Shown: piece by piece, positions 30,701 to 63,798 of the stretch
Position numbering within the stretch: the stretch's first letter is position 1
Layout of the letters: every line of letters starts with the position of its first letter
NCBI RefSeq assembly: GCF_965363235.1
Contig: NC_134846.1
Location: 61,927,121-61,991,120, forward strand
Source of the DNA: Mytilus galloprovincialis
Taxonomy: Eukaryota; Mollusca; Bivalvia; Mytilida; Mytilidae
Direction of reading: 5' to 3'
DNA length: 64,000 nucleotides
Translations under genes and position numbers: made by a program
Notes under the pieces: generated by a model
What the model was told of the DNA's origin: nothing
What the model saw: the letters and a program-made list of their open reading frames with translations, nothing else
Database searches by the model: none

Positions 30701-33700
30701 TAAAATATGACACTTGGGCCACCTGAAACAAATATTTTTCGATTTTATAAATATTGAGAAATACTTTGACGTAATAGAAGTCAAAAGCTGAGCTGATCAA
30801 CCCGAAAGCTACATTAGCTGAACATTAAGATAATATTCATTCTCTCCTGACTAACTTTCATATGTGTATCAATCTTATGAAATACGCTATATTGCAATGA
30901 AAAAGTTTACCACATTCGTTACCTGACATCAATTGATAACACAAATTAACTGTTATTGTCACGTGTCACGGATATTTACCCATTTTGATTAAAAAACTCA
31001 ATTTGTACTTTTGGATAAAACAGTATCCGGTATCTAGCTATAAATACTATGTACCTTTAAAGACCCTAGAGGGATTTTGCTATTTAGTATTACTTTTTTT
31101 TTTTTGGTCGTATAGCTCTTCAACTCTTTTGGATCTTATACATCATTAGCGTTTAAATATTTGACATTGAGCGTTTCTAATGAAGGTATATCGCGCATGA
31201 TCATATGACTGTTGATTAATCAAAATCAAAAAACAACTGTTTTGTTATGTCTTTCTATATCTCATGTCCATTTTTGGATTCGAGCGTCATTGATGTGTCT
31301 TTTGAAGACGAAATGCGCTTAATAGGTTATCTTTACTACAGTGCTGTACGCGTGTATTGTAATTTTACATGGTTATCTATGATGAGTATTTGTATACTTT
31401 TAAAAAAGTGTTTTACTTCACTTTTACAGTACATTTTACTATCAATGGTTCACATCTCCATTTTGTGTTTGTGTTGCCTACCATTCACCCAGTAATTATT
31501 TCATCTGCGTTCTTATCATTCAAATGTCACATTTTAACTCTAAATCTTTATTTTGTAAATTTTGTAATTGGCTAGGATTGCAACTCCTTCTGATAAACGA
31601 CGAAGTTACATGTAAGTGTTCAAACAAGCAAAATGTTTTATGTATTATATCTGTTAGTATTTTGCTAAGAATTCGGCTGTTTTAGGTTACAAAAGGCACA
31701 AGTGACATTGAAAATGAAATGGGCATCAACTTTTATCTAACCCTTGTGTAGCATCGCCACCTGATATAGGTACCACTGAAGCAAAGAAACAATGATAGCC
31801 TAAAAGGGTATATTCTAATAATTTACCGCTATTCGCCGTACAGTTTAACCGCTTTGTTTTTATGAAGTTCTCTGTCGAATACAGTCTTATTCTAAGTATG
31901 CCGCTGTTCAATAAACATTAATCGATTTAACTAAAAAATATCCGAGTCACCAGTTTTTTTCAAGTTTGAACACGTCATATTTTTCATACCATCCTACATG
32001 TATCTGATTCTGACGATTTGAAGAGAGAGAGAGAGATGACCGCTTATGTAAAATTCGAGGGACCAGTCTTAAAATGAAGCAGGGGGACGCCGTGTCTGTT
32101 GTGTCTGTAATTTAATATAGTTTCTTTTTATAATGGAGGATAAGATATTACGCCACAGCAGTGTTCATCACAATATTGATCTGTTGATCAGTTATATACC
32201 GTATTTGTTGAGTATGGTGAGTTCATATTCCAACAGACAATCAGTATGTCATTAAGTTCTTATAGTGATGACGTTACGCACGATATTGCGTCCCAATTAG
32301 TAACGTCAAAATTTGACGTTTTACGTCGGTAATCGAGTATACTTTGTTCGTTTTGTTTGTTATCATTTTTGATCGATATGGATACTTCAAAGTCTTGAAT
32401 ATGTATGAAATATTTCCTACTGGTAGTTACTCAAGCAAAAATAAAAAATACAAAATAGGTATTTGGTTGAGAAAATAGTGCCTATAGTATCTTATATAAT
32501 GCGTTGGTCACCCGTTTAAATTTAAGAAGAGAGGGAAGGGAGGAAGCAATTCATGTTGCTTAAATAATATAGTTTTTTTGTTTTGTGCTTTTATCTTTTA
32601 TCTTTTTTTAAATGTTGTTGATTTTTTGTGTTTTTTTTAGGGGGGGGGTGTGATGATAAGTGAAAGGATTTTAATGAAAAAGACTTCTATTGTTTACAAC
32701 GGAGTAATTAAATCAAGAAAGAGAATGATTTCGTGAAAAAAATAATTATATTCATCTGATATGTTTACAAGCTTTGTATAATATCGAGGTGTAACTCCTC
32801 AGGTACAACAATTTTACTGCCTCCTTCAATTTCAACACAAATGAACCGTATTGCAGATGAATAGCAAATCGTAGTTCTACGCTTCACAAGTTTGAAAATA
32901 AACGGTTGATCTTTTATCCTCTCGTAATATAGCCCTTTCACAACTTTAGAATCTTGGTTAAATGAACAACCCCAGTCATCTGAAATATTTTACCTATTTA
33001 TTGACAAATTACCATATGTTTTTTTTTTTATTATTTTAGATAATTATCTATTTTCTATTTGATTATAACTACTATTATATATTACAGTTCTTATCGTGGT
33101 TTCTATGAGTCTATCTATTTTCGAAATTTGTGATTTGGTTATTTTGTTTTGTCCTCTGATCTTAAAACATGAAATCGAACCGTACTTGTTATTTAAAAAC
33201 AATGAAATTAATATCGTTCATATATCATATGATAATACGAACTGCTTTCAATTTCGATGGTCAAGGAGGGTATTGGCCTAATGAGTTCATATAAAGTGAT
33301 AAAAAGCCTGCGGCGATTTTAAGATATTAAGCTCGTGGCGAGATTTGTTCGACTCCGATCCTAATCGACAGTTATTGCAAATATTTTAACTTAAGGTCGC
33401 CTGATGTCCGGCTTCTCCTACCTATGATGAGAGGTCAATAAAATACAACAAATGCCGTTTATACATGTACATGATGTAGTGGTGTTTAACACCAAAACAA
33501 AGAACAAACTTTTAGAAATAACTTGAAAATACATATATGTATAGTGTCCCGAATCGAAAACGTTCAAAACGTAAGAAAATTGTTCAGTGGACAAACTTGC
33601 AAGACATTTGATTTGTTAAAAACGAAGTCATTTCGACTTAACAGCTTATCAAAAAGTATGTTATCGTATTGTGGGGTGAAAGCACAATTACGCAAAAGCA

Positions 33701-36700: not shown

Positions 36701-38352
36701 ATAATATTTTACTTGTAAAAGTAAATCCTGAGCCTGTAATAGCTGCTCTTCTTGTTCCATTTGAATTAATAGAAACAACGCTGTCGCCTTTCTTGTTCTC
36801 ATAGAATCATATGATATTAGCTCCATGTTTTGTGAACTTCTTTCTTAACTGTCGTATTAGACTGACCAGTGCATATCGCGCATGGCACTTTAAATGTATT
36901 TTAGCGCGAAAATTAACTTACATTGAGCTGGATTTATTGCCGTCGTAGTTCCATCTTGTCGCCGTCGTACTTTTATTCGATGGCAACACGACAGGATTAC
37001 GAGGTCTTCACGAAGTCGTGTTGCCATCATAAGACCTTCGGGTATCTTCGGGATTCATTCGTGTAGACATCGTAATGTCAAAACTGCCCGATGGAAACGA
37101 TGGAAACACGAATGCAATACGATGAGCAAAGATGCATTCCCGGTGACATTACGATAGTGAGGATGGTGATACGAACTCAATACGAACCCTCAACATCGGA
37201 CGCACCTTCGGGGATTTTTTAACATATTAAAAAATTTAGAACCCTTCCCGAAGTTGTCCCCGAAGGCTAGAAAAAGTGGCCGATGGTTCTACGATGGTTA
37301 AAGATGGCACTACGAATAGCCCGATCTGGATACGATCAGTCCCGATTTTGAAAATTTCCATTATCGTATTGCCATCGGCGAAAAAATCGGGACAGTGTGA
37401 CGCGGGCATTACATATTCTATCTTAAAATCTGAAATTTCTGATTTCTAGTAAAATAGTATAGGTAAGACATGAACCTGTTATACGTACTGTTGAAAGTAT
37501 TCCTATTGCACCATAGAAGGTCTTTCGAATGCTTGAAGAAATAACTTCATCAGATATAAGTTGGTCACATACTATAACCATAAAGCCTGATAGAAATGCC
37601 TTATGCAATCCATGAAAAAAGTTAGTAATTACAAACGCTATAAAGTTCCGGTCTGATAAAATCTGACAAGTCTGTTTCCAAAAAGATTCGTTCATATTTT
37701 TCTCATGAGAAATGTCTGCATCTTCTCTCTTCATTTTCTTCAAATCATACTTTGTATAAGCATGAAGTCCAGAATACAAGAAAAGCAACCAAGAGCAAAA
37801 AGCAATGAGAACAGTTGTCATTTGAAAAGCTCTGAAATAATGTAAATTATCTGATGTGAATTCCAGTAACATGATACTAGGACTCCCAATAATGCTTGCG
37901 ATTTGTGCATAACGAGTGAGAGCTATTCTATCTTCCGGTTCCTGCGATAACTCTGTAAAAAGTGCACACATAGCAAGACCCATAAAGGTAAACATAGTAT
38001 CCCAAAGAAAGAGGGAGGCAATTAAATGCAGGCCAATAATCGTATTGCTGTCTCCCCATGGAATCCATGGTACCAGAAAAGAAAGAGCAAACAATGGTCC
38101 ACAATAAAGAATGCTTTCTCGTCTGGTTTTGGTAAATTTCCAATTTGTACTGTCTTGGATATAGGCAAACAATGGGTCGTTTATTGCATTCCAAATTAGA
38201 TATGATACTTGAGCGACCTGAAACCAATATTCTTCGATATGGTATATATTTAGAAACACTTTGACGTAATAGAAGTTAAAAGCTGAGCTGATTAATCGGA
38301 AGCCCACAGCGGCAGCACAATAAGACAATATTCCTTCCCGACTTACTGTCAT
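24469..38352 (-). CDS. MFSD13A: MFSD13A/TMEM180-like membrane protein, copy A (4 exons)
   Basis: The exons, in transcript order, are 37489-38352, 28121-28275, 25487-25570 and 24469-24736. The introns are 9.2, 2.5 and 0.75 kb, the splice sites are canonical and the joined frame is 456 residues. The protein is strongly hydrophobic. It carries 'FYYVKVF' (28-34), 'NAINDPLF' (55-62) and a basic 'KTRRES' loop, and near the C-terminus 'SSMVFGTNALITKPA'. These match human MFSD13A (TMEM180), whose corresponding blocks are 'NSLNDPLFGW' and 'LLFGMVALVTKP'. It is a major facilitator superfamily relative expected in a membrane, and its substrate is unknown. It is shorter than the human 517 aa. The start aligns with MTV of copy B. 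A decayed copy of exon 1 lies in intron 1. Confidence 0.87.
25487..25570 (-). CDS. MFSD13A: MFSD13A-like copy A, exon 3
   Basis: 84 bases, acceptor 'TATGTTTAAG', donor GTATGT. It encodes 'CASGATFGLFNMPLADIADE', equivalent to the human segment with 'TDLVDED'. Length and phase are identical in the three copies. Confidence 0.87.
25674..26828. mobile_element. TIR DNA transposon with G/A-rich subterminal repeats
   Basis: Inverted arms of about 100 bases (25674-25775 and 26740-26828) share 'ACGATTTACAGAAAAGAGCG', followed by several 'ACCGAAAAG' and 'GACCGAAAAG' units. Both sides are flanked by the 11-base direct repeat TCTTTTTACCG (25663-25673 and 26829-26839), a good candidate target-site duplication. 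The minus-strand frame 26488-26721 ('FVLSYLNCLTKYLQNKDCDM') resembles the region before the catalytic part of hAT-like or ZMYM1-like transposases as I recall them. An 11-base duplication is longer than the 8 expected for hAT. The element is non-autonomous and lies in intron 2 of MFSD13A-like copy A. Confidence 0.7.
26488..26721 (-). pseudogene. hAT-like transposase fragment
   Basis: A 77-residue frame inside the TIR element, with 'FIVALFVTQFVLSYLNCLTK', 'DCDMVLAYDDA' and 'LPDVNTWEQEV'. The pattern of a hydrophobic helix, an L.Q.KD/C.D core and an acidic helix is reminiscent of hAT-family proteins upstream of the dimerisation domain. It is far too short to be active. The family assignment is tentative. 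Confidence 0.4.
27420..27545 (+). repeat. Retrozyme-like solo copy, second subfamily
   Basis: It contains 'GAGCGTTCCTGATGAAGGTA' followed by a GAAA box ('CCAGAAAAGCGC'), in the order of a hammerhead core (CTGATGA, short stem, GAAA). The stem II pairing is weak. A more decayed relative lies at 31110-31200. It directly abuts the repeat at 27545-27801. Confidence 0.5.
27545..27801 (-). repeat. Inverted-pair repeat, right copy
   Basis: Reverse complement of 23821-24047, with matches through 'GTGTGTTACATTTTAATGTT' and 'GTGGTATACTACCGTTGCC'. It has a (GT)n expansion near 27655. Similar but clearly diverged, so the pair is old. Confidence 0.8.
28121..28275 (-). CDS. MFSD13A: MFSD13A-like copy A, exon 2
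   Basis: 155 bases with acceptor 'ATGTTTTCAG' and donor GTAAGT. It encodes 'LLRTYSYFKVIR' and 'GHNHPWCLMLFLLM', and aligns residue for residue with exon 2 of copies B and C. It leaves two bases for the next exon, the same phase in all three. Confidence 0.88.
29040..29400 (+). repeat. Dispersed mussel repeat, long GATGTGG copy
   Basis: The fullest copy of the GATGTGG module here, running through 'CATACCGCATAGTCAGCTAT' and on into a second module with 'CTCCTGACTTGGGACAGGC'. The second module also recurs at 26140-26240 and 30175-30260, so composite arrangements are common. No open frame of note. Confidence 0.75.
29425..29695 (+). repeat. Dispersed repeat with (GGAC)n tail
   Basis: Forward copy of the repeat at 5812-5990. 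It contains a GGAC/GAAC tetranucleotide array (29605-29646) and ends in 'GTAGGTGGGGCATAA'. The opposite-strand frame over it (29593-29877) is repeat-derived. Confidence 0.75.
30316..30861 (-). pseudogene. Decayed MFSD13A-like exon 1 copy
   Basis: It aligns on the minus strand with residues 1 to about 185 of copy A exon 1. The shared start context is at 30859-30861, followed by 'FYYVKVFLNIYKIE', 'QVAQVSYFI', 'NALNDLLF', 'LILWDTM' and 'FRPFQMTTV'. The frame is broken between 'FTKI' and 'LILWDTM' by small deletions, the NDPLF motif is changed to NDLLF, and homology stops near 30320 before the exon's 3' third. It sits in intron 1 of copy A in the same orientation and is closer to copy A than to B or C. 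Confidence 0.88.
32269..32330. promoter_or_regulatory. Cluster of CRE-like TGACGT half-sites
   Basis: Four ACGTC/TGACG cores fall in about 60 bases: TGACGTTA (32269), TAACGTCA (32301), TGACGTTT (32314) and TACGTC (32322). The middle pair forms a near-palindrome. Such cores bind CREB/ATF factors in animals. The site is inside intron 1 of copy A and far from any start, so function is speculative. Confidence 0.2.
35348..37408. mobile_element. 2.06-kb TIR element with TTA target duplication
   Basis: The ends are 27-base perfect inverted repeats beginning 'TGCCCGCGTCACACTGTCCC'. TTA is duplicated at 35345-35347 and 37409-37411. The 3-base TTA duplication is typical of PIF/Harbinger elements. Both subterminal regions (about 35385-35670 and 36955-37380) are dense in TACGATGG and TACGAAG motifs, which could be transposase-binding repeats. 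No transposase frame remains, so it is non-autonomous. A different repeat (about 35765-36320) occupies its centre. It lies in intron 1 of copy A, 80 bases from the end of exon 1. Confidence 0.85.
35765..36320 (+). repeat. Repeat nested in the TTA element
   Basis: Bounded by 'TTATCCCCTCGCC' on the left and the inverted 'CGAGGGGATGCCACGCTCGG' on the right. It contains two copies of 'TGGACACTCTAAAACCAA' (35819 and 35952) and 'GTTCAAAGGTCAAGGTCA'. These modules are unlike the flanking TACGATGG sequence, so I read it as a later insertion. Its class is unknown. Confidence 0.6.
37489..38352 (-). CDS. MFSD13A: MFSD13A-like copy A, exon 1
   Basis: 288 codons from ATG (38350-38352) to donor GTACGT. 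It encodes the N-terminal transmembrane half with 'WIPWGDS' between helices and the acidic/basic loop 'KKMKREDADISHEKN' before the second half. A frame read past the donor adds 21 unrelated residues and is intronic. Confidence 0.9.
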
Positions 38353-38916
38353 GGCTATATTATTCCTATGATATTGCTACAACGGGATGAAATTATTCAT
38401 CGTATCCGCATACTGTAATCTACCAATATTACGACGTATAAAAGTGCGTTACCTGTTTTATGCACTATTGCACAAAATAGCATCCGGTATGTATATATAT
38501 ATTTATAAGCCGTTTAATGATATAAATCGTAGACAGGTTGCTAGAATTCGACATCGAAACAAAAATATAACCATTGATTTACCATAATGATATCATAATG
38601 GCTAGAAATGTGAAATAATCATTGCAGATAATGGTAATATCCAAATGATATTTATAAAATCATATATTTATATATTTTCGAGTTGAGAACTAGTCCTGGG
38701 CTGGTATTTGTTTTGTCGACATTCAGGCTCGCCCCTTTTGAAGTTTATGCAATTCACTCAGTGTGTGTTTGTAACATTGGTTTACCTTCTTCGACTGGTA
38801 AGATATGAACATCGGTAATATACTGTTGCCTAAATTTATGTTTTTACCAGTTGCTATTCCACTGACAAATACAAGTCGAATAATGAACTGTTATAACCTT
38901 CCACGCATATGCCTGT

Positions 38917-39074: not shown

Positions 39075-39235
39075 CCTGTTCAAAAGAAGGAACCTTATCT
39101 GTTGTTATCTCAAGTCGTATTTTAAAGATTTCCGTTATCATTGGAATGAGGTGCAGGTGATAGATCTTTGATAGTCTTGGTTGTAAGTATCCAAAACTTT
39201 TCTAGACCCGGAAGATTTAGTATTTCACATCATGG

Positions 39236-39480
39236 AAATAAACTCATCATAGATACCAGGATTAAATTTTGTATATATGCCAGACGCGCATTTCGTCTAC
39301 AAAAGGCTCATCAGTGACGCTCGAATCAAAACAAGGCCAAATAAACTACGAAGTTGAAGAGCATTGAGAACCAAAATTCCTAAAAGTTTTGCCAAATTTA
39401 GCTAAGGTAATCTATTGCTGAGGTAGAAAAGCCTTAGTATTTCAAAAATTCTAAATTTTGTTAACAGTTAATTTGTAAAT
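39236..39480 (-). repeat. Retrozyme-like solo repeat (minus)
   Basis: Monomer of the family seen in tandem at 60.8-62.7 kb, recognised by 'GATTACCTTAGCTAAATTTG', 'CAATGCTCTTCAAC' and the hammerhead core at 39277-39320. It ends in 'CCTGGTATCTATGATGAG'. Its subfamily differs from the array by the sequence before the ribozyme. Confidence 0.8.
39277..39320 (-). ncRNA. Hammerhead ribozyme motif, solo copy
   Basis: The minus strand reads GCGTCA, CTGATGA, a stem II hairpin, GAAA, ATGC/GCGT, C, then TGGCAT. Core boxes are intact. Stem II has one mismatch (GCCT against AGAC), and the last pair of stem I is lost. Stem III is short and loopless, as in dimer-type motifs. Probably weak or inactive alone. 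Confidence 0.65.
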
Positions 39481-39504
39481 ATAAGCATATCAATGAGGGG
39501 GGAT

Positions 39505-41771: not shown

Positions 41772-41822
41772 AAATAGTTATCAAAGGTACCAGGATTATA
41801 ATTTAGTATGCCAGACGCGCCA
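41772..41822 (-). repeat. Retrozyme-like 3' fragment
   Basis: The minus strand reads 'GGCGCGTCTGGCATACTAAA' then 'TTATAATCCTGGTACCTTTG', the sequence after the ribozyme in the tandem array. It is truncated just inside the hammerhead, so the core is missing. Confidence 0.7.
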
Positions 41823-42142: not shown

Positions 42143-45100
42143 CTGAAACATAAAGATAAGTTTTTAACATAAGCAAATTGGAAGATAAAGCAAAAGTTGG
42201 TAAAAAAATGAACACACACAAATAAGTCAGTTTAAGGTTCGTAAAGGGTAATCAATAATAACCATGCACTAATATTAGTTAGCTAGACATATCAAAAGTT
42301 ATATTGCAGAGCTTTGATTATTTTTGTTCAAATTTCTAAAATGTAAAGACTCGGAAAGACTTAGATTGACAAACTGTATAGATGCCTGTTTATTGTTAAA
42401 TCTGTTTGTTTTTGTTGCTGTCTCCTTCACGTATATCCCTTTTATTGTATGTATTTCGTATCTGTATGTATTACAGAAAAGGTCTTCACTTGGGCAACAC
42501 CAATCGACTCATTCAATGTTTTTTTTTTAATTTACTATATTTATCGTTGTTTTTTTTTAATATCTGGGAAAGTGAGGTTGTCAATGCAGTAGCTGATTAA
42601 AGGGACATACGATATCAAATTCATTTCCACCAAATCGACACAAACTCGGTAATTTGATTGATGACATAAAAATATTTATCAAAATTTCAAAATTTTGCAT
42701 GAATTACAAAAGAAATAATAACAATGCATGAAATCGACTAGATAAAATATTAACGTTTTGTTTTGTTTTGGAATTGTGGATCTTCTATGCTCTTCAACTT
42801 TGTATTGTTTGGCTTTATAACTATTTTGATATGAGCGTCACTGATGAGTCTTATGTAGACGAAACGCGTGTCTGGCGTACTGAATTATAATCCTGATACT
42901 TTTGATAACTATTTGTCTAAATTGTCCCCCGAGATAACCTTAGAACACTACTGATTGTCCTGTGACCAGGTATGAACCAGGTATGAACATAGATATGATT
43001 TTTTTTTGCAGACAGACAAGCAAGTACAAAAATATAACTTATATATTTTTGAAAAAGCAAAATAAAAATCAAATGGATACAAGAACGAGATAATCGTCAG
43101 TACATCTTGTATAATTTGTAGGAACTTGAATTATGTATTAGGAATAATAATAAAATTAATAGTAACAAGGGTGACCAAATACTAATTTTGAGTATTTGAT
43201 GAGTATTTTGTGCCAATCTGAAATCCTGATTGACTGTCACCATGAATGGATATCGTGAAATTTCGGCATGTTAGAAAACATGAATCAAACCAAGCTATTA
43301 TTATCCGCATCAATTTATGTCCACACTTGTAAAAATAGTAAAAATATCAAAAGTTCTTTATATTATGATATGTATTGCTTCACGGTTGTTTTCTCCTATG
43401 TTTTATCTTGCTGTTAGGTGTGTTTGGCGCAAATCTATCGAGTGAAGTATTTAAATATATTATTACATATTTTATGTCTGTCTTGTTTTTGGATTCTTTT
43501 CCTTTTTCTTTCATTCTTCTGTTGTACCAATGTTTGACTAGTTCGTTTCTTTCTTTTCTTTACTTTTGAATATTTTTTTGTTTTGTTATAGTCGTACATA
43601 GGTACTATATTTCTATGAAGAAGAATTAATTTAAGTAGTGATAACTTTTGTCATAATATATTATGTATTGTAAATCAAAATACATATTGATACAGAAAAA
43701 CTTGAAATACTTACTCTCGTTTATATTTAGTTTTGTTGATATCAGCTAGATCTGCTTGTGCCATACCAAAGAAAGCGTAAACAACACTTATCGCACAGCT
43801 AAAAGAAAAATAAATATGTAGCAAATAATATTCATATCTCGGAGTCTTTCAAACCCCTATGATCATACATTGGACACTTTATGTTTAATGTTTTTTGAAA
43901 TATTTCTACTGTTTTATAGGTTAATATTTGTGAGTTTATACTTTAAATGGTCTCTTTGTTGTTCGTTCTTTTGATATTTAGATGAAAATGTATAGACGTA
44001 ACAAATAAAAGGATGAATAAACTTCCAACACTACATAAATATTTTTACCTATCAAGCATCAGGAATATGATTAGGCACCAAGTATGCTCTTGTCCAATAT
44101 ATAGCATAATAAATCCTGCTAGTACCATGGATCCATAGACTGATTGTACCACTTTGTAGTAAGAGTATCTCGTCGCAAACGACGCTCCAAATACCACACA
44201 TATCTATGGCAAAGAATAGCTTTATTGGAGAAAACCTTCTATGTATAAATATACACAATTAATGAGTTATAATAATCTAAGAGAATTATGTAATTTGGGT
44301 AAATTTATATTTCGTGCACAAAAATTAAGATCTCTAACGTGATGTAATATGTTTCACACATTACCTTCTGCTATCTATGTATACTTTGTATACTTTGTGT
44401 GGTTTATATGTTGTATACCTATAGTTGTTATGACTTTGGTAAATAAAGATATAGTTATTGTTCAATAATAACAAAAATAAAAAACGATACCACGCTCGTT
44501 TCATATACTTTTAAGACTCTTCAGTGGTGCTCAAATAATAACCACAAATGGAGCAGGATCTGCTTACCCTTCCGGATCACTTGAGATCACTCCCAGTTTT
44601 TGGTGGGGTTCTTGTTGCTTAGTCTTTAGTTTACTATGTTGTGTCTTATGTACTATTATTTGTCTGTTTGTCTTTTTATTTTTAGCCATGACGTTGTCGG
44701 TTTATTTTCTATCTATGAGTTTGACGCTCCCTCTGGTATCTTTCGTCCCTCTTTCATAAAACAGTAAGAAGGTCATATTAATCAACGCATCATAGAATTA
44801 CATATACTGTCATATAGCTTCTTGAACATGTATGATCATTCATTGAGTAACTTGTCATTTTATTCATAATATTACATTCACTTGTCTCAATTACAAATGC
44901 CAAAATCATACAGCTTGTCGCCGACACATCAAACCCCCAATATTCAACTTACTGCAGATATTAAAGGGATTCCACCATAAAAAATCTTTCTGGCATCTTT
45001 CGGAAACACATCATCTGGAATTAAGTGATCACAAACTATGGCGATGAAATTATTTACAAAATATTTATGAAAAACGTGAAAGAAGAAGGTGACAGCAAAA

Positions 45101-45843
45101 GCAATAAAGTTAGCATCTGATAAATACTGGCAAACTTGGGTGCAATAAGATTCATTTCCTTCTGAAATATTTTCACTAATTTCATTACCTTGATCTACAT
45201 GTATGTCTGAATTAGTCCTTTTAATTGTATTCGGGTCATAAGGACTAGAAATATTAATTCCTGCGTAAAGAAATAATAAACCGGAACACACTGCTATCAG
45301 TAATGTCGTTATTTGAAAGGTTTTAAAGTTGCTAAGACTGTCCGATGTAAACTCTAGTAATAAAACCGTTGGCGTGCCTAATATACACGCAGTATGGTAA
45401 TATTTCGTCAGTAGTATTCTGTCCTCTGTTTTGTCAGAAAGTTCTACAAACAATGCAGACATAGTAAGTGACATAAATGTACATACTGTGTCCCAAGAAA
45501 CGAGACTTACAATTAGATGTAGTCCTACAACCCATGAATTATCTCCCCATGGTAACCATGGTATAATGAATGTTGTTACTAATATAGGCCCACAATATAA
45601 AATACTTTCTCGTCTTGTTTTTGTAATTCTCAATCTTTTGCTATCTAGAATATAACCAAATAAAGGATCGTTTATGACATTCCATGTTAGGTATACTAGT
45701 TGTGCCATCTGAAACCAATATGCCTCGATGTGATATAGATTCATGAACACTTTGACATAATAGAAACTGTAGGCTGTGCTAACCATCCGGAATGCTATTC
45801 CAGAAGCACAATAAGCTATGAGTCTATGTTTGTTGACTGTCAT
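41878..45843 (-). CDS. MFSD13A: MFSD13A/TMEM180-like membrane protein, copy B (4 exons)
   Basis: The exons, in transcript order, are 44953-45843, 44049-44203, 43715-43798 and 41878-42142. All have canonical splice sites and together give a 464-residue frame with no stop. The introns are only 749, 250 and 1,572 bases, so this is the most compact copy. It shows 'FYYVKVF', 'NVINDPLFGYIL', 'KTRRES', 'WLPWGDNSW' and 'SSMVFGTSSLIGRPA'. Compared with A it has a longer, more acidic central loop (about residues 205-235, Asp/Asn/Glu-rich). The role is as for copy A, a predicted polytopic MFS-type membrane protein of unknown substrate. The intact frame and tidy structure suggest it is functional. Confidence 0.9.
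42780..42912 (+). repeat. Retrozyme-like solo repeat (plus)
   Basis: Close to the array subfamily: 'GGCTTTATAACTATTTTGAT', then the hammerhead core, then 'TTATAATCCTGATACTTTTG'. It faces the inverted 3' fragment at 41772-41822, 1 kb away. Confidence 0.8.
42835..42878 (+). ncRNA. Hammerhead ribozyme motif, solo copy
   Basis: GCGTCA, CTGATGA, stem II GTCT-TATGT-AGAC, GAAA, ACGC/GTGT stem III, cleavage base C at 42872, then TGGCGT closing stem I. All core bases fit the type I consensus. Stem III has one G-U wobble. Confidence 0.75.
43715..43798 (-). CDS. MFSD13A: MFSD13A-like copy B, exon 3
   Basis: 84 bases, acceptor 'TTTTCTTTTAG', donor GTAAGT. It encodes 'FFGMAQADLADINKTKYKR'. It is the most diverged of the three exon 3 copies at its start (CAISVVYA against CASGATF). 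Confidence 0.87.
44049..44203 (-). CDS. MFSD13A: MFSD13A-like copy B, exon 2
   Basis: 155 bases, acceptor 'CTTTGCCATAG', donor GTAAAA. It encodes 'FATRYSYYKVVQ' and 'GQEHTWCLIIFLML', two hydrophobic segments around a conserved Trp-Cys. Confidence 0.88.
44540..44763 (-). repeat. Dispersed repeat, 'CTGACAACGCCATGG' module (reverse)
   Basis: Inverted relative of 40845-41085, matching from the 'GCAGGATCTGCTTACCCTTC' end to 'GAAAGAGGGACGAAAGATAC' on the opposite strand. It lies in the region between exons 1 and 2 of copy B, inside its 749-base intron 1. Confidence 0.8.
44953..45843 (-). CDS. MFSD13A: MFSD13A-like copy B, exon 1
   Basis: 297 codons from the MTV start. An in-frame ATG 36 bases upstream (45877-45879) is poor because a good acceptor (TTTTCTTTTAG) lies between, at 45852-45853, so the real exon begins with an 8-base leader and an upstream non-coding exon exists. 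Donor is GTAAGT. Confidence 0.9.
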
Positions 45844-46279
45844 TTGTGAACCTAAAAGAAAATCAGTAAAATTATCCATAGATGTAATGTAGCATGTGCT
45901 TTGTTTATACTAGTAATCCTCACTCTCATTTCTCGTTTTTAAAACAGTACACTCTAAATAGATTTCCAGCACATTATCTAAACAAATGATTTAAGGTCAA
46001 GTATCAGTAAATAGGCTATGTCACATAATTTTGCATACAACTCTGTATGAATGGATGGATGGACTTCAAATGAAAATCTAAAACATAATGCATTTATCTA
46101 ATTTATCCTTTGAAAAATTACTGATCGAATTTTTACAAAATGGGTGAATATTTGTATAGAAAGCACATAAATCGGCGAAAAACTTTCTAAAATTTGTCTT
46201 AAAATCGTTAAATCTCTAAGTCTACTCCATGTTGTTGATACATAAATTTCCGTTTTAACGATAAAAAAAATAAAGATAG

Positions 46280-47100: not shown

Positions 47101-47782
47101 GTGAACAAACATTGTAGATTAAAATGTAAAAAAAGGGGTACAGCAGACAACATTGTGAAAGTATATAAATAACTATAAAAACAAACAAAAAAATATGTAA
47201 AAACATTTACCATGGCACAATAACACAATGACGGGATGTATAAAGATCAACGTCATATGAAACAAAGAAAAACAAAAAGGCATATAGACCACAGCATATT
47301 AGCAAAAATGAAAGACAAGAATACAGAAATTATCATAGAACAATAACACAATGCGGGATGTATAAGAACAGAGCCATGTCAAATGTAAAAAAAAGTAACA
47401 CAAATAGGCATATAGACAAAGAATATTCGCAAAATTTGAAGACAAAAATGCAAAAATTATGATAAAATAATAACACAATACGGGATGTAGAAGTACAGAA
47501 AATGACCAGTGATTTGTACATAATCATTTACCATTTTAAGAATTATTTCCTTAAAATGATTTCATAGATTATCAATAATATACATTTAAGGATTCTTCGT
47601 TTAATAAAAAAAAAAATCAAATACAAACAAATAAATCGTATGTATTACAAAAAGTATCCTTTTCTGGTTTAAGTGGTAATTTTTCATACCTTGCCCATTC
47701 ATCAAATCTCATTTAAGTGAGCAGTTTTTTCCTGTGATATTCTATTTAACTGTAAAGAACCACATTAACTGATAACATGTCA

Positions 47783-47989
47783 AACAAACTCATCATAGAT
47801 ACCAGGACTAAATTTTGTATATACGCCAGACGCGCGTTTCGTCTACAAAAGACTCATCAGTGACGCTCAAATCCAAAAAAGTTTTAAAAGGCCAAATAAT
47901 GTACGAAGTTGAAGAGCATTGAGGACCAAAATTCCTAAATGTTTTGCCAAATCCAGCTAAGGTAATCTATGCCTGAAGTATAAAAGCCT
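47783..47989 (-). repeat. Retrozyme-like solo repeat (minus)
   Basis: A full monomer with 'GATTACCTTAGCTGGATTTG', 'CAATGCTCTTCAACTTCGTA', an intact hammerhead core and the 3' part 'CCTGGTATCTATGATGAG'. It abuts, in opposite orientation, another family member at 47990 that hosts the nested insertions. Confidence 0.85.
47823..47866 (-). ncRNA. Hammerhead ribozyme motif, intact solo copy
   Basis: The minus strand reads GCGTCA, CTGATGA, GTCT-TTTGT-AGAC, GAAA, ACGC/GCGT, C, TGGCGT. Every core base and all stem I, II and III pairs are present, including six stem I pairs (two are G-U). Stem III is a loopless palindrome, so cleavage would need a dimer or a tandem transcript. Confidence 0.8.
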
Positions 47990-48217
47990 TAAATCATTCT
48001 CAACATTAAGGTTTTCCTCCATCATACAAAGATAGCATTATCCAGATTTTGCAACATTTGATTTTCGATCCTCTTCATATTTGGTTTTTGGTTTGTGATT
48101 CCAACCGTTTTAATTTGAAGGTCATTGAAAGGTCTTATATATTTTTTGTACACATACTTTACAATTTTACTTAGACAAACAAGTGAATAATATATATAAA
48201 CCTTATATTTGTAAATA

Positions 48218-52025: not shown

Positions 52026-52591
52026 ATACCGTATGTGTGCACATAACTTGAATATAGAGACAGGAAGATATTATAATATCGACAGGAAAGATAGATTATG
52101 TATTTATTGTAATACAAGTTCCATTGAAGACGAATTTCATTTTTTATTGGAATGTAATAAATATGCTGACATTAGGGAAAAATATATCAAACAATATTAT
52201 TGGAGACACCCCTCTACTTATAAATTGATACAATTTTTATCTGTACAGAATATTAAAGAACTGAACAATCTTGGTAAATACTTAAAATTAGCGGAGAAAC
52301 TACGCTGCTAACTTTTAATAATTTTATGAATTTCATACTCTGCGTTATACTTGAAATTGTATGGTATACGAGAATTTTAATGTATTTCAATGTAGTTAAC
52401 ATTTTATTATTATATGTCTGATTATTTAATATGGTGCATGTATAATTAATTTGTCAAAAATTTAATGTATATCCTATAAGCTGTACTTGCTTTTGGAATA
52501 AAGTATTATTATTATTATTATATAGAGGAAACGTGCGTCTGGCGTGCTAAATTCTAAACCTGGTATATTTGATGAGTTGTTGGCTACATAT

Positions 52592-54599: not shown

Positions 54600-54795
54600 G
54601 TTAAAAACTTTCTCCACATTAAGGTTTGCTTCCCCATTACAAAGATAGCATTACCCAGAATTTGTAACATTTGATGCTCAATGCTCATCATATTTGAATT
54701 TTATTTTTCAACTGTTTTAATATAAAGGCGAATGAAGCGCTTTATGTAGAAAAAACGGGCGTCTGCGTTAACAATTATAAACCTGTTATCTTTGA
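54600..54795 (+). repeat. Retrozyme-like solo copy, decayed
   Basis: It shares 'CCATTACAAAGATAGCATTA' and 'CATTTGATG.TCAATGCTCATC' with the split copy at 47990. The ribozyme region is reduced to 'TTTATGTAGAAAAAACGGGC' and the CTGATGA box has become 'CGAATGAAG'. Confidence 0.65.
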
Positions 54796-55414
54796 AAAGG
54801 TTTTTCTTCTTCCCTCAGTGTATACATGTGTGTAACTCAGAAGGGTCACAAGTTTACGGTTGCCTGGCTTTTTTTTATACATTTAAGTGACAGATGAAGA
54901 AAGAAATTCTACAAACCTATATAGTTGAAAGATCAGGCATGAATACTTCCACACTAAATCTTATTTCGACATCATATTATTTTAATTCAGGTAAGTTGTA
55001 ACCTTGGGATCATATCCGTGTAAATACAAATACAAGTGCATTGGCTTGTATCCTGGTTTATTGGAGATATGCACATTAATCATTAATTTAATGTTGACGT
55101 GTGTATCGTTACAGATGAATGAACTAACTTTAAATTGTTTAATAAAAAAATGAACCAAATTATAAACCATGACGCCGTATCCTCGAGTGTCACAGTAATG
55201 AATTTTAGTCCACTATCGTCTTAGCCATTCGACATCTTTTTTATACTTCACAAACCTGGAATCGATTAAACACTATTTTCTGTTTCGTATGTTTTTGCCG
55301 GTTTGTTAGCCTTTTGCAATTTACTCGAGACACCTTCCTTCCACTTTCCTAGTCAAAACTTATTATTGAAGACCTATATGTCTACTATTTGAGAAATTAT
55401 CGCCTCCCAAAGGT

Positions 55415-55585
55415 AACTTTTAGGAATTTTTGGTCGTCAATGCTCTTCAACTTCGAACTTTATTTGGCCTTTTCAACTGTTTTTTTTTATTCGAGCGTCT
55501 TTTGTAGACGAAACGCGCGTCTGGCGCAAATGCTAAATTTCAATCCTGACATTACCCTGGCATCTATGATAAGTTTAGTTTAATG
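55415..55585 (+). repeat. Retrozyme-like solo copy lacking the CTGATGA box
   Basis: It matches the 39236 and 47783 copies, with 'CAATGCTCTTCAACTTCGAA', 'ACGAAACGCGCGTCTGGCGC' and 'CCTGGCATCTATGATAAG'. A deletion removed ACTGATGAGTC between GAGCGTC and TTTTGTAGAC, so it cannot fold as a hammerhead. Confidence 0.8.
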
Positions 55586-58931: not shown

Positions 58932-59142
58932 CTGGAAAAGAAAGTCACGTATGTAATTACATCTGATTAATTCATTAATTATTTTGAATACATTGATTGG
59001 TTGATTGATTGATGGTTTGATATATTGATTGATTGGCCGATTGATTGATATTTGACTTTGGCACCACAACGATGAAATATAACTTTGTCATTTATGATTA
59101 TAGAAACCTTATGTATTAAAGAGTATACAATTAAAAACCTAC

Positions 59143-60009
59143 AGTTGACATTAATGAAATTCCACCATAAAACAACTTTCGAACACCAAGTGGCACATCA
59201 TCTTCTGAGATCAACTGGTCACAAACAATTGCAATGAAGCTATTTAGAAACGTTTTGTGGAATGCATGACAAAAATTTGATACGATAAATGCTATGAAAT
59301 TCCTGTCATAGAAAAGCTGACATACTTGATTCGTGTACGTTTCCTTGTTAACATTTACACGCGAGTTCTTTGAAAGTTCGTATTTTTCTAATTTCTTAAC
59401 ATCATATTCCGTATGAGCATTAAGTCCTGAGTAGTAAAATAAACTGCAAGCACACACTGCAACACACACGGACGTTATCTGGAAGGCTTTAAAATTGTGT
59501 AAACTGTCTGAGGTAAATTCTAATAACATAACGCTTGGACCACCAAGTATACTAGCCATTTGTGCATATCGAGTTAACTTTATTCTATCTTCGGTATCCC
59601 GAGAAATTTCAGTGAATAATGAAGATACAGCTAATCCTATGAATGTAAACATTGTATCCCAAAGAAAAAAAGTTATAATCAAATGTAGACCAACAAGCCA
59701 TGAACTGTCTCCCCATGGAAACCAAGGCACGATAAATGAGAAGGCAAACAGAGGACCACAATACAGTATGCTTTCCCGCCTTGTTCTTGAGATTTTAAGC
59801 TATGATCCATCTTGTATATAAGCAAACAACGGATTACTGATAGACGTCCAGATCATATGAAAGGTTTGAGCGATCTGGAACCAAGTTTCTTCAATGTGAT
59901 AGTGGTTTATAAAAACTTTGACATAATAAAAGTTGAATGCAGATGCAATCATGTGAAAAGCTACACCAGCTGCACAATAAGCTAATATTTCCTGCTTTCT
60001 TAAAACCAT
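59143..60009 (-). pseudogene. MFSD13A-like copy C, exon 1
   Basis: 289 codons from the ATG at 60007-60009, aligned with MTV of A and B. A good acceptor (TTTTATTTCAG) at 60064-60065 marks the exon's 5' edge, with 54 bases of leader. One in-frame TAG at codon 70. It retains 'FYYVKVF', 'WFPWGDSSW' and 'FLWDTMFTF'. Confidence 0.87.
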
Positions 60010-60065: not shown

Positions 60066-60842
60066 GAAATAAAAAAAAAGATTGTGCTTTGATAACAATA
60101 TGTGTTGATGCCTTTCACAAATTAATAATTCAGCTCATGGATACGTCAGCAGCCAAAGACTTTCTTTAAAAGTTTGATGCTATACGCGAAAACGTACTAT
60201 CTGAACGAAGATTCTTATGCTTTTTAAACTCGAGCGAATAAGATTAACATTAGCAGCTCAACACCACCTTCATAACGAAAAATTGTACAAATTTGTCTTA
60301 CCGCGATACTCATAAGGCAAACCTGCAAGAAGGTTCAGATGATATTGCAGACTTTAAAATAACATTATACATTTGGTGTAAACTTTAAAAAAAGTAAAAA
60401 TTCGATGGTATCATGAATTGGTAATAAACTCAGAGTCGAATTCAGGAAGATTGGATTAAGGCTCCGAACGGTACTAGCTTTCTTAGTTTATTGACCTGAC
60501 TTTGCCTGGATACCGATCTGTTTACAAACGCCGCGGGGAAACATGTCAGCAATTTTATATTCTATACATTGACAAGATATAAAGTGTTTGATAACAAACG
60601 TGAAAAGCGAAATTCGGCGAAGATGATTACTTTGCCTGCATGTATAATAAGCGCAAATCTACGTCTGAACAATAAAACCTTCAAAATGTTAACCTTGCAT
60701 TCACACTTTTCCATATGGGAACATAAGCATACCTAACTTCAAATGTTTCATTCTTTTGCCGTTTTCGAGATAAGCATAACGCCACACGCATGTTTTAGAT
60801 AGAGTTTTTCCTTTAAGCCAAAAGTCACACTGTTACGTTTTA
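60066..60842. other. Upstream region of copy C, no gene seen
   Basis: The stretch should hold the first non-coding exon and promoter of copy C, but I see no clear TATA box or donor that I can defend. It is AT-rich and unrepeated. Confidence 0.4.
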
Positions 60843-60970
60843 TTATGTAGACGAAACGCGCGTCTAGCGCACTAAATTATAATCCTGGTACCTTTCATAA
60901 CTATTTACACCACTGGGTCGATGCCACTGCTGGTGGACGTTTCGTCCCCGAGGGTATCACCAGCCCAGTA

Positions 60971-60990
60971 GTCAACACTTCGGTGTTGAC
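60971..60990 (+). ncRNA. UUCG-capped hairpin in array unit 1
   Basis: GTCAACAC-TTCG-GTGTTGAC: eight perfect pairs capped by a cUUCGg tetraloop, one of the most stable RNA hairpins. Also perfect at 61674-61693, 62028-62047 and 62378-62397; degenerate in the second unit (about 61320). Confidence 0.75.
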
Positions 60991-61177
60991 ATGAATATTC
61001 ATAACGTGGTCATTTTATTAAATTTCCTTTACAAAACTGAAATTTTCGAAAAATTAAGGATTTTCTTATCCCAGGTATAGATTACCTTAGCCGTATTTGG
61101 CACCAATTTTTAGAATTCTGGATACTCAATGCTCCTCAACCTTGTACTTGTTTGGCTTTATAAATATTTTGATATGA

Positions 61178-61221
61178 GCGTCACTGATGAGTCTTATGTA
61201 GACGAAACGCGCGTCTGGCGT
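61178..61221 (+). ncRNA. Hammerhead ribozyme motif, array unit 2
   Basis: Stem I is GCGTCA with TGGCGT (six pairs), core CTGATGA, stem II GTCT-TATGT-AGAC, core GAAA, stem III ACGC/GCGT without loop, predicted cleavage after C 61215. All conserved bases present. Confidence 0.82.
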
Positions 61222-61529
61222 ACTAAATTATAATCCTGGTACCTTTGATAACTATTTACATCACTGGGTCGATGCCACTGCTGGTGGACGCTTCGTCCCC
61301 GAGGGTATCACCAGCCAGTAGTCAACACTTCTGTGTCGACATGAATATTAATAATGTGGTCATTTTATTAAATTTCCTGTTTACAAAACTGAAATTGTCG
61401 AAAAACTAAGGATTTTCTTATTCTAGGTATAGATTACCTTAGCTGTATTTGGCACCACTTTTTGAAATTCTTGATACTCAATGCTCTTCAACTGTGTACT
61501 TGTTGGGCTTTATAAATATTTTGATATGA

Positions 61530-61573
61530 GCGTCACTGATGAGTCTTATGTAGACGAAACGCGCGTCTGGCGT
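61530..61573 (+). ncRNA. Hammerhead ribozyme motif, array unit 3
   Basis: Identical in sequence to the unit 2 motif, with a complete core and all three stems. Predicted cleavage after C 61567. Confidence 0.82.
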
Positions 61574-61883
61574 ACTAAATTATAATCCTGGTACCTTAGA
61601 TAACTATTTACATCACTGGGTCGATGCCACTGCTGGTGCACGTTTCGTCCCCGAGGGTATCACCAGCCCAGTAGTCAACACTTCGGTGTTGACATGAATA
61701 TTAATAATGTGGTCATTTTTATTAAATTTCCTGTTTACAAAACTGAAATGTTCGAAAAACTAAGGATTTTCTTATCCCAGGTATAGATTACCTTAGCCGT
61801 ATTTGGCACCACTTTTTGGAATTCTGGACACTCAATGCTCTTAAACTTTGTACTTGTTTGGCTTTATAAATATTTTGATATGA

Positions 61884-61927
61884 GCATCACTGATGAGTCT
61901 TATGTAGACGAAACGCGCGTCTCGCGT
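61884..61927 (+). ncRNA. Hammerhead ribozyme motif, array unit 4
   Basis: Core CTGATGA and GAAA intact, but stem I is changed (GCATCA with TCGCGT), which loses at least one pair next to the cleavage site. Probably weakened. Confidence 0.7.
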
Positions 61928-62233
61928 ACTAAATTATAATCCGGGTACCTTAGATAACTATTTACATCACTGGGTCGATGCCACTGCTGGTGCACGTTTC
62001 GTCCCCGAGGGTATCACCAGCCCATTAGTCAACACTTCGGTGTTGACATGAATATTCATAACGTGGTCATTTTATTAAATTTCCTTTACAAAACTGAAAT
62101 TTTCGAAAAATAAGGATTTTCTTATCCCAGGTATAGATTACCTTAGCCGTCTTTGGCACCACTTTTTAGAATTCTGGATACTCAATGCTCCTCAACCTTG
62201 TACTTGTTTGGCTTTATAAATATTTTGATATGA

Positions 62234-62277
62234 GCGTCACTGATGAGTCTTATGTAGACGACACGCGCGTCTGGCGT
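62234..62277 (+). ncRNA. Hammerhead motif with mutated core, array unit 5
   Basis: Stems are intact, but the GAAA box reads GACA, changing A14 of the standard numbering. This conserved base is needed for activity in known hammerheads, so this copy should be inactive. Confidence 0.75.
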
Positions 62278-62587
62278 ACTAAATTATAATCCTGGTACCT
62301 TAGATAACTATTTACATCACTGGGTCGATGCCACTGCTGGTGCATGTTTCGTCCCCGAGGGTATCACCAGCCCAGTAGTCAACACTTCGGTGTTGACATG
62401 AATATTAATAATGTGGTCATTTTTATTAAATTTCCTGTTTACAAAACTGAAATGTTCGAAAAACTAAGGATTTTCTTATCCCAGGTATAGATTACCTTAG
62501 CCGTATTTGGCACCACTTTTTGGAATTCTGGATACTCAATGCTCTTAACCTTTGTACTTGTTTGGCTTTATAAATATTTTGATATGA

Positions 62588-62631
62588 GCGTCACTGATGA
62601 GTCTTATGTAGACGACACGCGCGTCTGGCGT
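62588..62631 (+). ncRNA. Hammerhead motif with mutated core, array unit 6
   Basis: Carries the same GACA change as unit 5 with intact stems. The shared change suggests units 5 and 6 arose from one duplicated unit. Confidence 0.75.
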
Positions 62632-62668
62632 ACTAAATTATAATCCTGGTACCTTTGATAACTATTTA

Positions 62669-63798
62669 TTCCGTTTTAAGGTCAAGTAACAGTAAATGAA
62701 CGTCGTCTAGCGGATTCCGCGAAATGTTGCGACGTTTTGTACGAGTTACGTCGCTTAGACAAGATTTAACAATGTTGCAACCGGCAACTTTTCGACAGGA
62801 CAACGCCGGCAAATTTAATGAGAGTATGTAACTTCTAGGAGAATTAAATTAATTACTAAAATTGAAGTATTTACGGGATTTTTAAAAAGAATATGAAAAA
62901 AGTCATGAAGACGATCTATAAAATGAAAATCGTGAACTTGGCTAGCGCCAAGGACAGACGTGGGGTGGTAAAGCTTAGATATCTCGGCGATCAGTGTGAA
63001 AACTGTAGCTAACCACTATTTCTACATAATTTTGATGAGGAAAACAGTGCTATCTCGAAAGTATGCTATGTAGTATGTCAAAACTGTCCCTACAGAAACT
63101 CGGCCTACATTCACTGGGGAAAGACATCTTGTAGCAGAAAATAAGAATTATTACTATTAAACTTAGTCTTGTTAAGATATCCCCTATTTTAAAAATTACA
63201 ACACCAGTCGAAACAAGAAAGAATATTTTCAAATTTAAGAAATGGAAGTCACATAAAATTCTCAGCTGCGTCAGTCAGTTTTGAAACAAATGACACAATG
63301 GTTTTATATTTACATTAACCTTCTTCACGGTTGCAACAATCATTTAAAATGTATAAATCATAAGTTTTTAGACTATAACAAATAAATAATAAATACAAAT
63401 GATGTTTCACAATTATTCAGATCTATTGCTACATTTTGTTTTCTAACGTTTTTGTAATGCTGCTTTCTTTCACGTCCGTAATTTTGTGGAAAATTGCGAT
63501 CCTAAAATTAGAACAAAAATCTTTATAAAGATGCATGTATTAATAGTGTAGGCCTATGGTTTGAAGAGTATGGTATAATCTCTTAATAAAAGAACATTCA
63601 GTGGATCCTTAAAATAATTTTCTTGTGTTAATTCGTATGGTTGTCGCCTCAAAGGAAATTGCTAAACATACGGTAAAAATAAGCATTTGTACAGATGGAC
63701 TTCGACAAGAGTCAAAATGTCCAGTCATGTCTCAGACTGTGTGCGTTTGTTTGTGTTTGTGGTTTTTATTGGTTTTTTTTTAATCAAAGTAAAGTGGG
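62669..63798. other. Right-end stretch, no gene seen
   Basis: AT-rich, no recognisable frame, repeat or RNA. The 60-residue frame at 63050-63232 has no motif and is likely noise. Confidence 0.5.

Follow-up and report, generated by a model that had tools for sequence, protein, structure and literature searches.

Copies of the retrozyme in the genome of Mytilus galloprovincialis are, on balance, probably made by a reverse transcriptase that starts at one internal site on an RNA whose ribozyme junction is sealed, and that carries on for anything between part of a lap and several laps. This reading draws on where the copies end and where they begin. The array at the centre of the analysis occupies positions 60843-62668 of a window of 64,000 nucleotides, which is the whole stretch of DNA that was analysed. 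It is best explained as a copy of the non-autonomous mussel retrozyme. The genome searched for its relatives measures 1.38 Gb, and the window is on its contig C9. A decapeptide repeated in mussel adhesive protein hits an open frame of 770 aa in this genome, with 100% identity across 60 residues, as expected of a Mytilus-type genome. Positions within a repeat are numbered from the cleavage site, such that q1 is the first base after the hammerhead cut.

The array, its hammerheads and its family

The array lies on the plus strand, as do all of its parts. It is truncated at its 5' end, where it starts at q333, in loop II. This start is followed by five complete units and a 43-nt 3' tail. Measured from cleavage site to cleavage site, unit 1 (60865-61215) is 351 bp long, unit 2 (61216-61567) 352 bp, unit 3 (61568-61921) 354 bp, unit 4 (61922-62271) 350 bp and unit 5 (62272-62625) 354 bp. 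The tail (62626-62668) comprises q1-43 after the last cleavage site, and it stops where copies of the family recurrently have their 3' end. The heptamer CGTTTTA is found directly before the array start (60836-60842) and again 3 nt past the tail (62672-62678), and these form a candidate left and right target-site duplication.

An earlier note on this DNA, made from its letters, had described a tandem array with five hammerheads. This is borne out. Tandem Repeats Finder, run on the window, returns exactly 60843-62668, with a period of 354, 5.2 copies and 94% matches; the units are 350-354 bp long, and there are five matches to the Rfam model Hammerhead_1. The note had also proposed a check with the Rfam type I covariance model, and here the outcome is divided: all five matches are found in a search by E-value (25.3-33.0 bits, E 7.7e-6 to 0.0026), but none reaches the gathering score of 34, all five being slightly below it. 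Among the Hammerhead_1 matches listed elsewhere in the genome, 29 of 37 do score above 34.

Two of the five motifs are intact and three are mutated. The hammerheads at 61178-61221 and 61530-61573 have an intact core (33.0 bits each). The one at 61884-61929 has a mismatched stem I (25.3 bits), and those at 62234-62277 and 62588-62631 have GACA where GAAA is expected (26.8 bits each), a change that is private to this array. CTGATGA is absent from the hammerhead of the 5'-most repeat because that repeat begins inside loop II.

Stem III of the array hammerheads is the self-complementary sequence ACGCGCGU. Folded as a hairpin this stem is computed at +1.7 kcal/mol, whereas a stem made of two strands gains 13.3. 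The native fold of the monomer comes to −6.7 kcal/mol, versus −10.0 for its best fold. For two hammerhead strands, the best fold is the double hammerhead, at −31.5 kcal/mol. The thermodynamics thus agree with the suggestion that dimers fold more favourably. The companion suggestion, that a monomer functions poorly, is unproven, and for the published repeat of M. galloprovincialis a cleavage rate of about 0.1 per minute is reported, as a monomer (PMC7229834, consulted in part). Folding of the whole unit is ordinary (z −1.68), with 7 of 100 shuffles equally stable.

The units are low in GC, at 38-40% (38.7%). No protein-coding frame was found in the array, where the longest stop-free run is 60 aa; a frame with reverse transcriptase (RT) and GIY-YIG, as in a Penelope-like element (PLE), is absent, as no frame exceeds those 60 aa. 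On reading the units, no plant layout of LTR, PBS and PPT is visible. Together with a type I hammerhead in each unit, albeit at scores below gathering, the low GC and the missing frame are what is expected of a metazoan non-LTR retrozyme. Such elements also come as tandem units of roughly 150-450 bp in many dispersed copies; here the units are 350-354 bp, and 16,200 strict motifs are present in the genome.

This number comes from a strict search pattern for the hammerhead, in which 25 bases are fixed and loop II is free; it matches exactly 7,990 + 8,210 = 16,200 times genome-wide, and its reversed control matches 0 times. The hammerhead family is present in the genome beyond chance. The 100 strict motifs that were listed, all on contig C1 and below 9.7 Mb, form 80 clusters, of which 66 hold a single motif, 10 hold two, 3 hold three and 1 holds five.

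Retrozymes of this mussel have been described before. Cervera and de la Pena (2020) report about 5000 hammerheads in two families for the non-LTR retrozyme of M. galloprovincialis, with repeats of 350-390 bp, and also an abundant circular RNA (PMC7229834). As far as the consulted part of that paper goes, the likeness extends to type I hammerheads, the repeat length of about 350-390 bp, a construct named DRtz_Mg353, the presence of two ribozyme families that are related, low GC and tandem copies, which supports the earlier note in calling the family probably known. The array fits the published retrozyme by these features, as opposed to by comparison with cloned sequence. The counts differ, with some 5000 hammerheads published versus 16,200 from the strict pattern alone in the present assembly.

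The same consulted part describes hammerhead satellites of axolotl and newt, which share tandem units (theirs of 330-350 bp) and a palindromic stem III that favours a dimeric ribozyme (PMC7229834). The amphibian ribozymes are reported to depend on dimers, whereas the mussel repeat is reported to cleave as a monomer, and the likeness drawn here is one of description. Plant LTR retrozymes, going by the portion of PMC7761336 consulted, are similarly non-autonomous and make circular RNA processed by hammerheads. They differ in having type III hammerheads, LTRs, a PBS, a PPT and 4-bp duplications.

The window contains other copies. A separate family-1 copy runs from q247 to tail position q42 (42766-42914, plus strand), and a further one at 41772-41820 (minus strand) is nearly tail-only, consisting of the last 7 nt before the cut plus the tail to q42. 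Two separate family-2 copies are at 47782-47991 and 39233-39496, both on the minus strand. Further retrozyme pieces are found at 31271-31318, 52518-52573, 54742-54798 and 55415-55548.

The surroundings of some copies are worth recording. On the minus strand of the window, three frames (37423-38376, 44944-45909 and 59131-59799) match the transporter family MFS_2 (PF13347) and probably belong to related genes in tandem; the third of them has the array some 1 kb upstream. On C1, copies at 2395892, 2402107 and 2408320 (L059-L061) are spaced some 6.2 kb apart and have identical boundaries, which probably reflects the tandem duplication of a larger segment that held a single insertion.

Where copies end and where they start

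Boundaries were mapped in 55 distinct arrays, taken from the best hammerhead matches, the best unit matches and the first 30 strict motifs on C1; L042 provided no usable cluster. For family 1, the 3' end is at q39-47 in 44 of 52 arrays, with a peak at q41. It is at q20-34 in another 5, and at q79, q177 and q192 in the last 3. Some counts below use a table of 49 arrays, which omits L051, L063 and L064 (other subfamilies) as well as the long-ended family-1 arrays L014, L020 and L033. The latter three are restored in the 44 of 52.

The same end is seen genome-wide. A count of exact tails (q20-40) in which q44-47 all depart from the unit gives 1,853, versus 8 for an internal control 21-mer, a comparison that is somewhat overstated since the 21-mer totals are not normalised and tails are expected to outnumber internal sites through 5' truncation. 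In 100 listed junctions, the base of the unit is retained in 88% at q41, in 49% at q42 and in 36% at q43. This drop means that most copies end at q41 or q42.

Family 2, whose loop II usually reads TTTTGTA, stops at the homologous TATGATGAGTTTATT; judged by eye, this holds for 19 of the 20 loci that can be assessed. This set had 23 loci, of which L093, L095 and L099 run on into a further unit and are not assessable; in the 20 that are left, L107 ends early.

No poly(A) follows the 3' end: the share of A is 34.5% in the 3' flanks and 34.3% in the 5' flanks. Target-site duplications, which in metazoan non-LTR retrozymes are longer than 4 bp when present, are weak here. A repeat of at least 6 bp is found in 7 of 49 arrays, versus 4.6% of shuffled pairings (one-sided p 0.007).

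The 5' ends of the mapped arrays are scattered over the entire unit. Genome-wide, there are 719 places where the tail (q20-35) is present and q1-4 are all mismatched. Within the 100 listed of these 719, the breaks of the exact match, traced backwards from q20, cover all positions down to q5, to which point mutations contribute. Judging by these breaks, copies of only about 25 nt likely exist. The places could also have belonged to some other element carrying the tail without a hammerhead; this idea was dropped, as the first 100 of the 719 mostly look, by eye, like truncated or mutated retrozymes. At C1:126978826-126978988, four tail fragments with identical upstream letters follow one another at a spacing of 32 bp, and a piece of tail has seemingly been captured there by a short tandem repeat.

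There is no excess of 5' ends at the cleavage site. Exact starts genome-wide number 23 at q1 (the cut), 42 at the control position q6 and 12 at q346, where it should be borne in mind that such counts are rough, because the patterns differ slightly in length and in mutable CpG content. Two of 49 arrays (L028 and L067) had suggested a preferential start at the hammerhead cut, and the genome-wide counts go against this. Similarly, a cluster of 5' ends within the hammerhead (q333-q354 plus q1, 11 of 49 arrays) is not claimed, given that the sample was partly chosen for full units and that the exact-start counts lend it no support.

Retrozyme copies do run across the hammerhead cut. On a self-cleaved linear monomer, synthesis that began at q41 would run off at q1. 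Since copies cross the cut and do not peak at it, the template would have been read as sealed at the ribozyme junction, be it as a circle or as an uncleaved multimer. Self-cleaved linear monomers are, from these boundaries, unlikely as the main template, and the copier appears to start at q41.

Shared variants within arrays

In the array at 60843-62668, the ribozymes that end units 4 and 5 have the change from GAAA to GACA in common, and none of 57 complete units sampled at other loci has it. Further private variants are common to units 1 and 4, to units 3 and 5, and (early in the unit) to units 3, 4 and 5; these too are absent from the 57 units elsewhere. Such sharing points to a local exchange of segments inside the array.

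The earlier note had seen units 4-6 as decaying and units 2 and 3 as possible active donors. To call units 4-6 decaying misreads the history, since GACA and other private variants are shared between units. It had also recommended the locus for dating and for tracking source copies. With segments apparently exchanged within the array, dating unit by unit and inferring source copies are both unsafe, and the mix of intact and mutated units makes for a poor clock.

A second long array, L033:833-2831, has units of 312, 355, 355, 312, 311 and 354 bp. No other sampled complete unit is as short as its deletion units. The way these 311-312 bp units are interleaved with units of 354-355 bp points to exchange within long arrays after insertion.

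Variants were also compared between arrays. The sample was 62 complete units, with one family-2 unit left out, and 21 sites at which the minor variant is present in at least 5 units and at least 4 arrays. Within arrays, 218 of 311 comparisons find a minor subfamily variant in both units, and between arrays 1,613 of 13,218 do so (70% versus 12%); the 48 intra-array pairs are not independent, 15 of them being from L033 and 10 from the array at 60843-62668. Arrays mostly look like one haplotype, as is expected of several laps on one template; duplication after insertion predicts the same. Near 1119-1153 of L025 (in reverse-complement coordinates) there is a junction where about 25 bp of tail is duplicated, as if the copier had stuttered or two insertions abut.

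Candidate copiers and templates

The following series of steps could have produced such copies. A tandem transcript would be cut by its own hammerheads and sealed into circles, or would escape cutting and persist as a multimer. Target DNA would probably prime a reverse transcriptase, which would set off from one internal site some 41 nt beyond the cut of the hammerhead. From there it would read back through the sealed hammerhead. Depending on whether it stops within the first lap or only after several, the result would be a tail-only, a single-hammerhead or a tandem insertion. Long arrays, such as the one at 60843-62668, may then swap units locally in a satellite-like way.

By analogy, a Penelope-like enzyme is the likeliest copier when that question is taken alone, at a confidence that stays somewhat below even. 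The complete proposal, in which an enzyme of Penelope type copies a sealed circular RNA from one fixed internal site, over a fraction of a lap to many laps, is more tentative. The analogy is with hammerhead PLEs. According to the consulted portions of PMC11167929, a purified Anolis PLE begins to copy its RNA at an internal position, and a tail of 30-40 bp is present on the copies in the genome. The elements described there and the retrozyme share a hammerhead followed by a tail of tens of nt, and tandem copies; the internal start is one that, for the retrozyme, we infer.

PLEs are common in the mussel genome, with at least 147 GIY-YIG matches among the 150 scored of 1,001 candidates. In two that were retrieved over a longer stretch, frames of 905 and 741 aa contain RT and GIY-YIG; for the 741-aa frame the RT match scores 28.1 bits, just below the cut-off of 29.6. 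A minimal hammerhead of one of two kinds comes after the frame in 10 of the 22 PLE loci that were read. A pattern for the minimal hammerhead of PLEs, which ends in GAAAGCGCTA, has 211 exact matches genome-wide. PLE ends bounded by (TA)n are found about 70 nt past the cut for the first kind and about 58 nt past it for the second, where 10 of 24 tails show this by eye.

There are also differences. PLEs encode the RT and GIY-YIG that the retrozyme lacks. The PLEs of this genome adjoin (TA)n, and no preference for (TA)n is seen at retrozyme ends. They are also often in head-to-head pairs, whereas an inverted relative is within 500 bp of the 5' end in only 3 of 55 retrozyme arrays. In four comparisons, the retrozyme tail has no significant similarity to the tails of two PLE families, as 124 to 929 of 1000 shuffles score as high. 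A TATGATG motif that was spotted by eye in both PLE and retrozyme tails is not significant either, the best comparison being equalled by 124 of 1000 shuffles. No homology to the retrozyme was found inside a PLE in the 22 PLE loci fetched; a piece that is next to a PLE in L070 turned out to be a separate family-2 insertion, outside the PLE.

The PLE pairs have a layout of their own. In the genome list, copies are often inverted head to head with their 3' ends facing out, and some lie within tens of bp of each other. In the five pairs read that are of the second kind (L121 and L123-L126), one arm terminates at (TA)n and the other seems to run on into PLE body. Such a layout would fit priming on both DNA strands.

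LINE hallmarks include a fixed 3' end and variable 5' truncation. The retrozyme shows both, so a LINE-type enzyme that recognises the tail might make these fixed-start copies, as in SINE-LINE pairs, and the lack of a significant match between PLE tails and the retrozyme tail favours it as well. We regard this as rather unlikely. The 3' end of the retrozyme has neither poly(A) nor a simple-repeat tail, and the first 100 of the 719 tail places with q1-4 mismatched do not, by eye, reveal a second element with a recurrent different upstream part.

It is less likely still that the template is a linear RNA that was terminated or processed at q41, which would make an internal start unnecessary. The fixed 3' end, taken by itself, fits the end of an RNA just as well. 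But at that site the unit lacks both a TTTT run and a poly(A) signature, and every multi-unit array continues past q41, so that an end there would need read-through inside arrays.

That these copies are ordinary satellite DNA, spread by unequal crossing-over and DNA-level transposition without any reverse transcription, is highly improbable despite the local unit exchange in the array at 60843-62668 and in L033, as spread at the DNA level predicts random breaks on both sides where the dispersed copies have one 3' end and varied 5' ends, and 66 of the 80 clusters in the listed sample hold a single strict hammerhead.

In the literature searched, supplements aside, the fixed 3' end, the absent peak at the cut and the tail-only copies are undescribed for metazoan retrozymes; no priority is claimed. 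Fixed 3' ends, truncated 5' ends and exchange of units are not among what the consulted part of PMC7229834 describes. In the published model, both the enzyme that copies metazoan retrozymes and the form of the RNA that it copies are left open. A fixed 3' end, copies that go straight across the ribozyme junction and arrays of one haplotype are concrete constraints on that copier. If the proposal of an enzyme of Penelope type on a sealed circle is true, the mussel genome would preserve thousands of traces left by rolling-circle, target-primed reverse transcription on a circle made by ribozymes.
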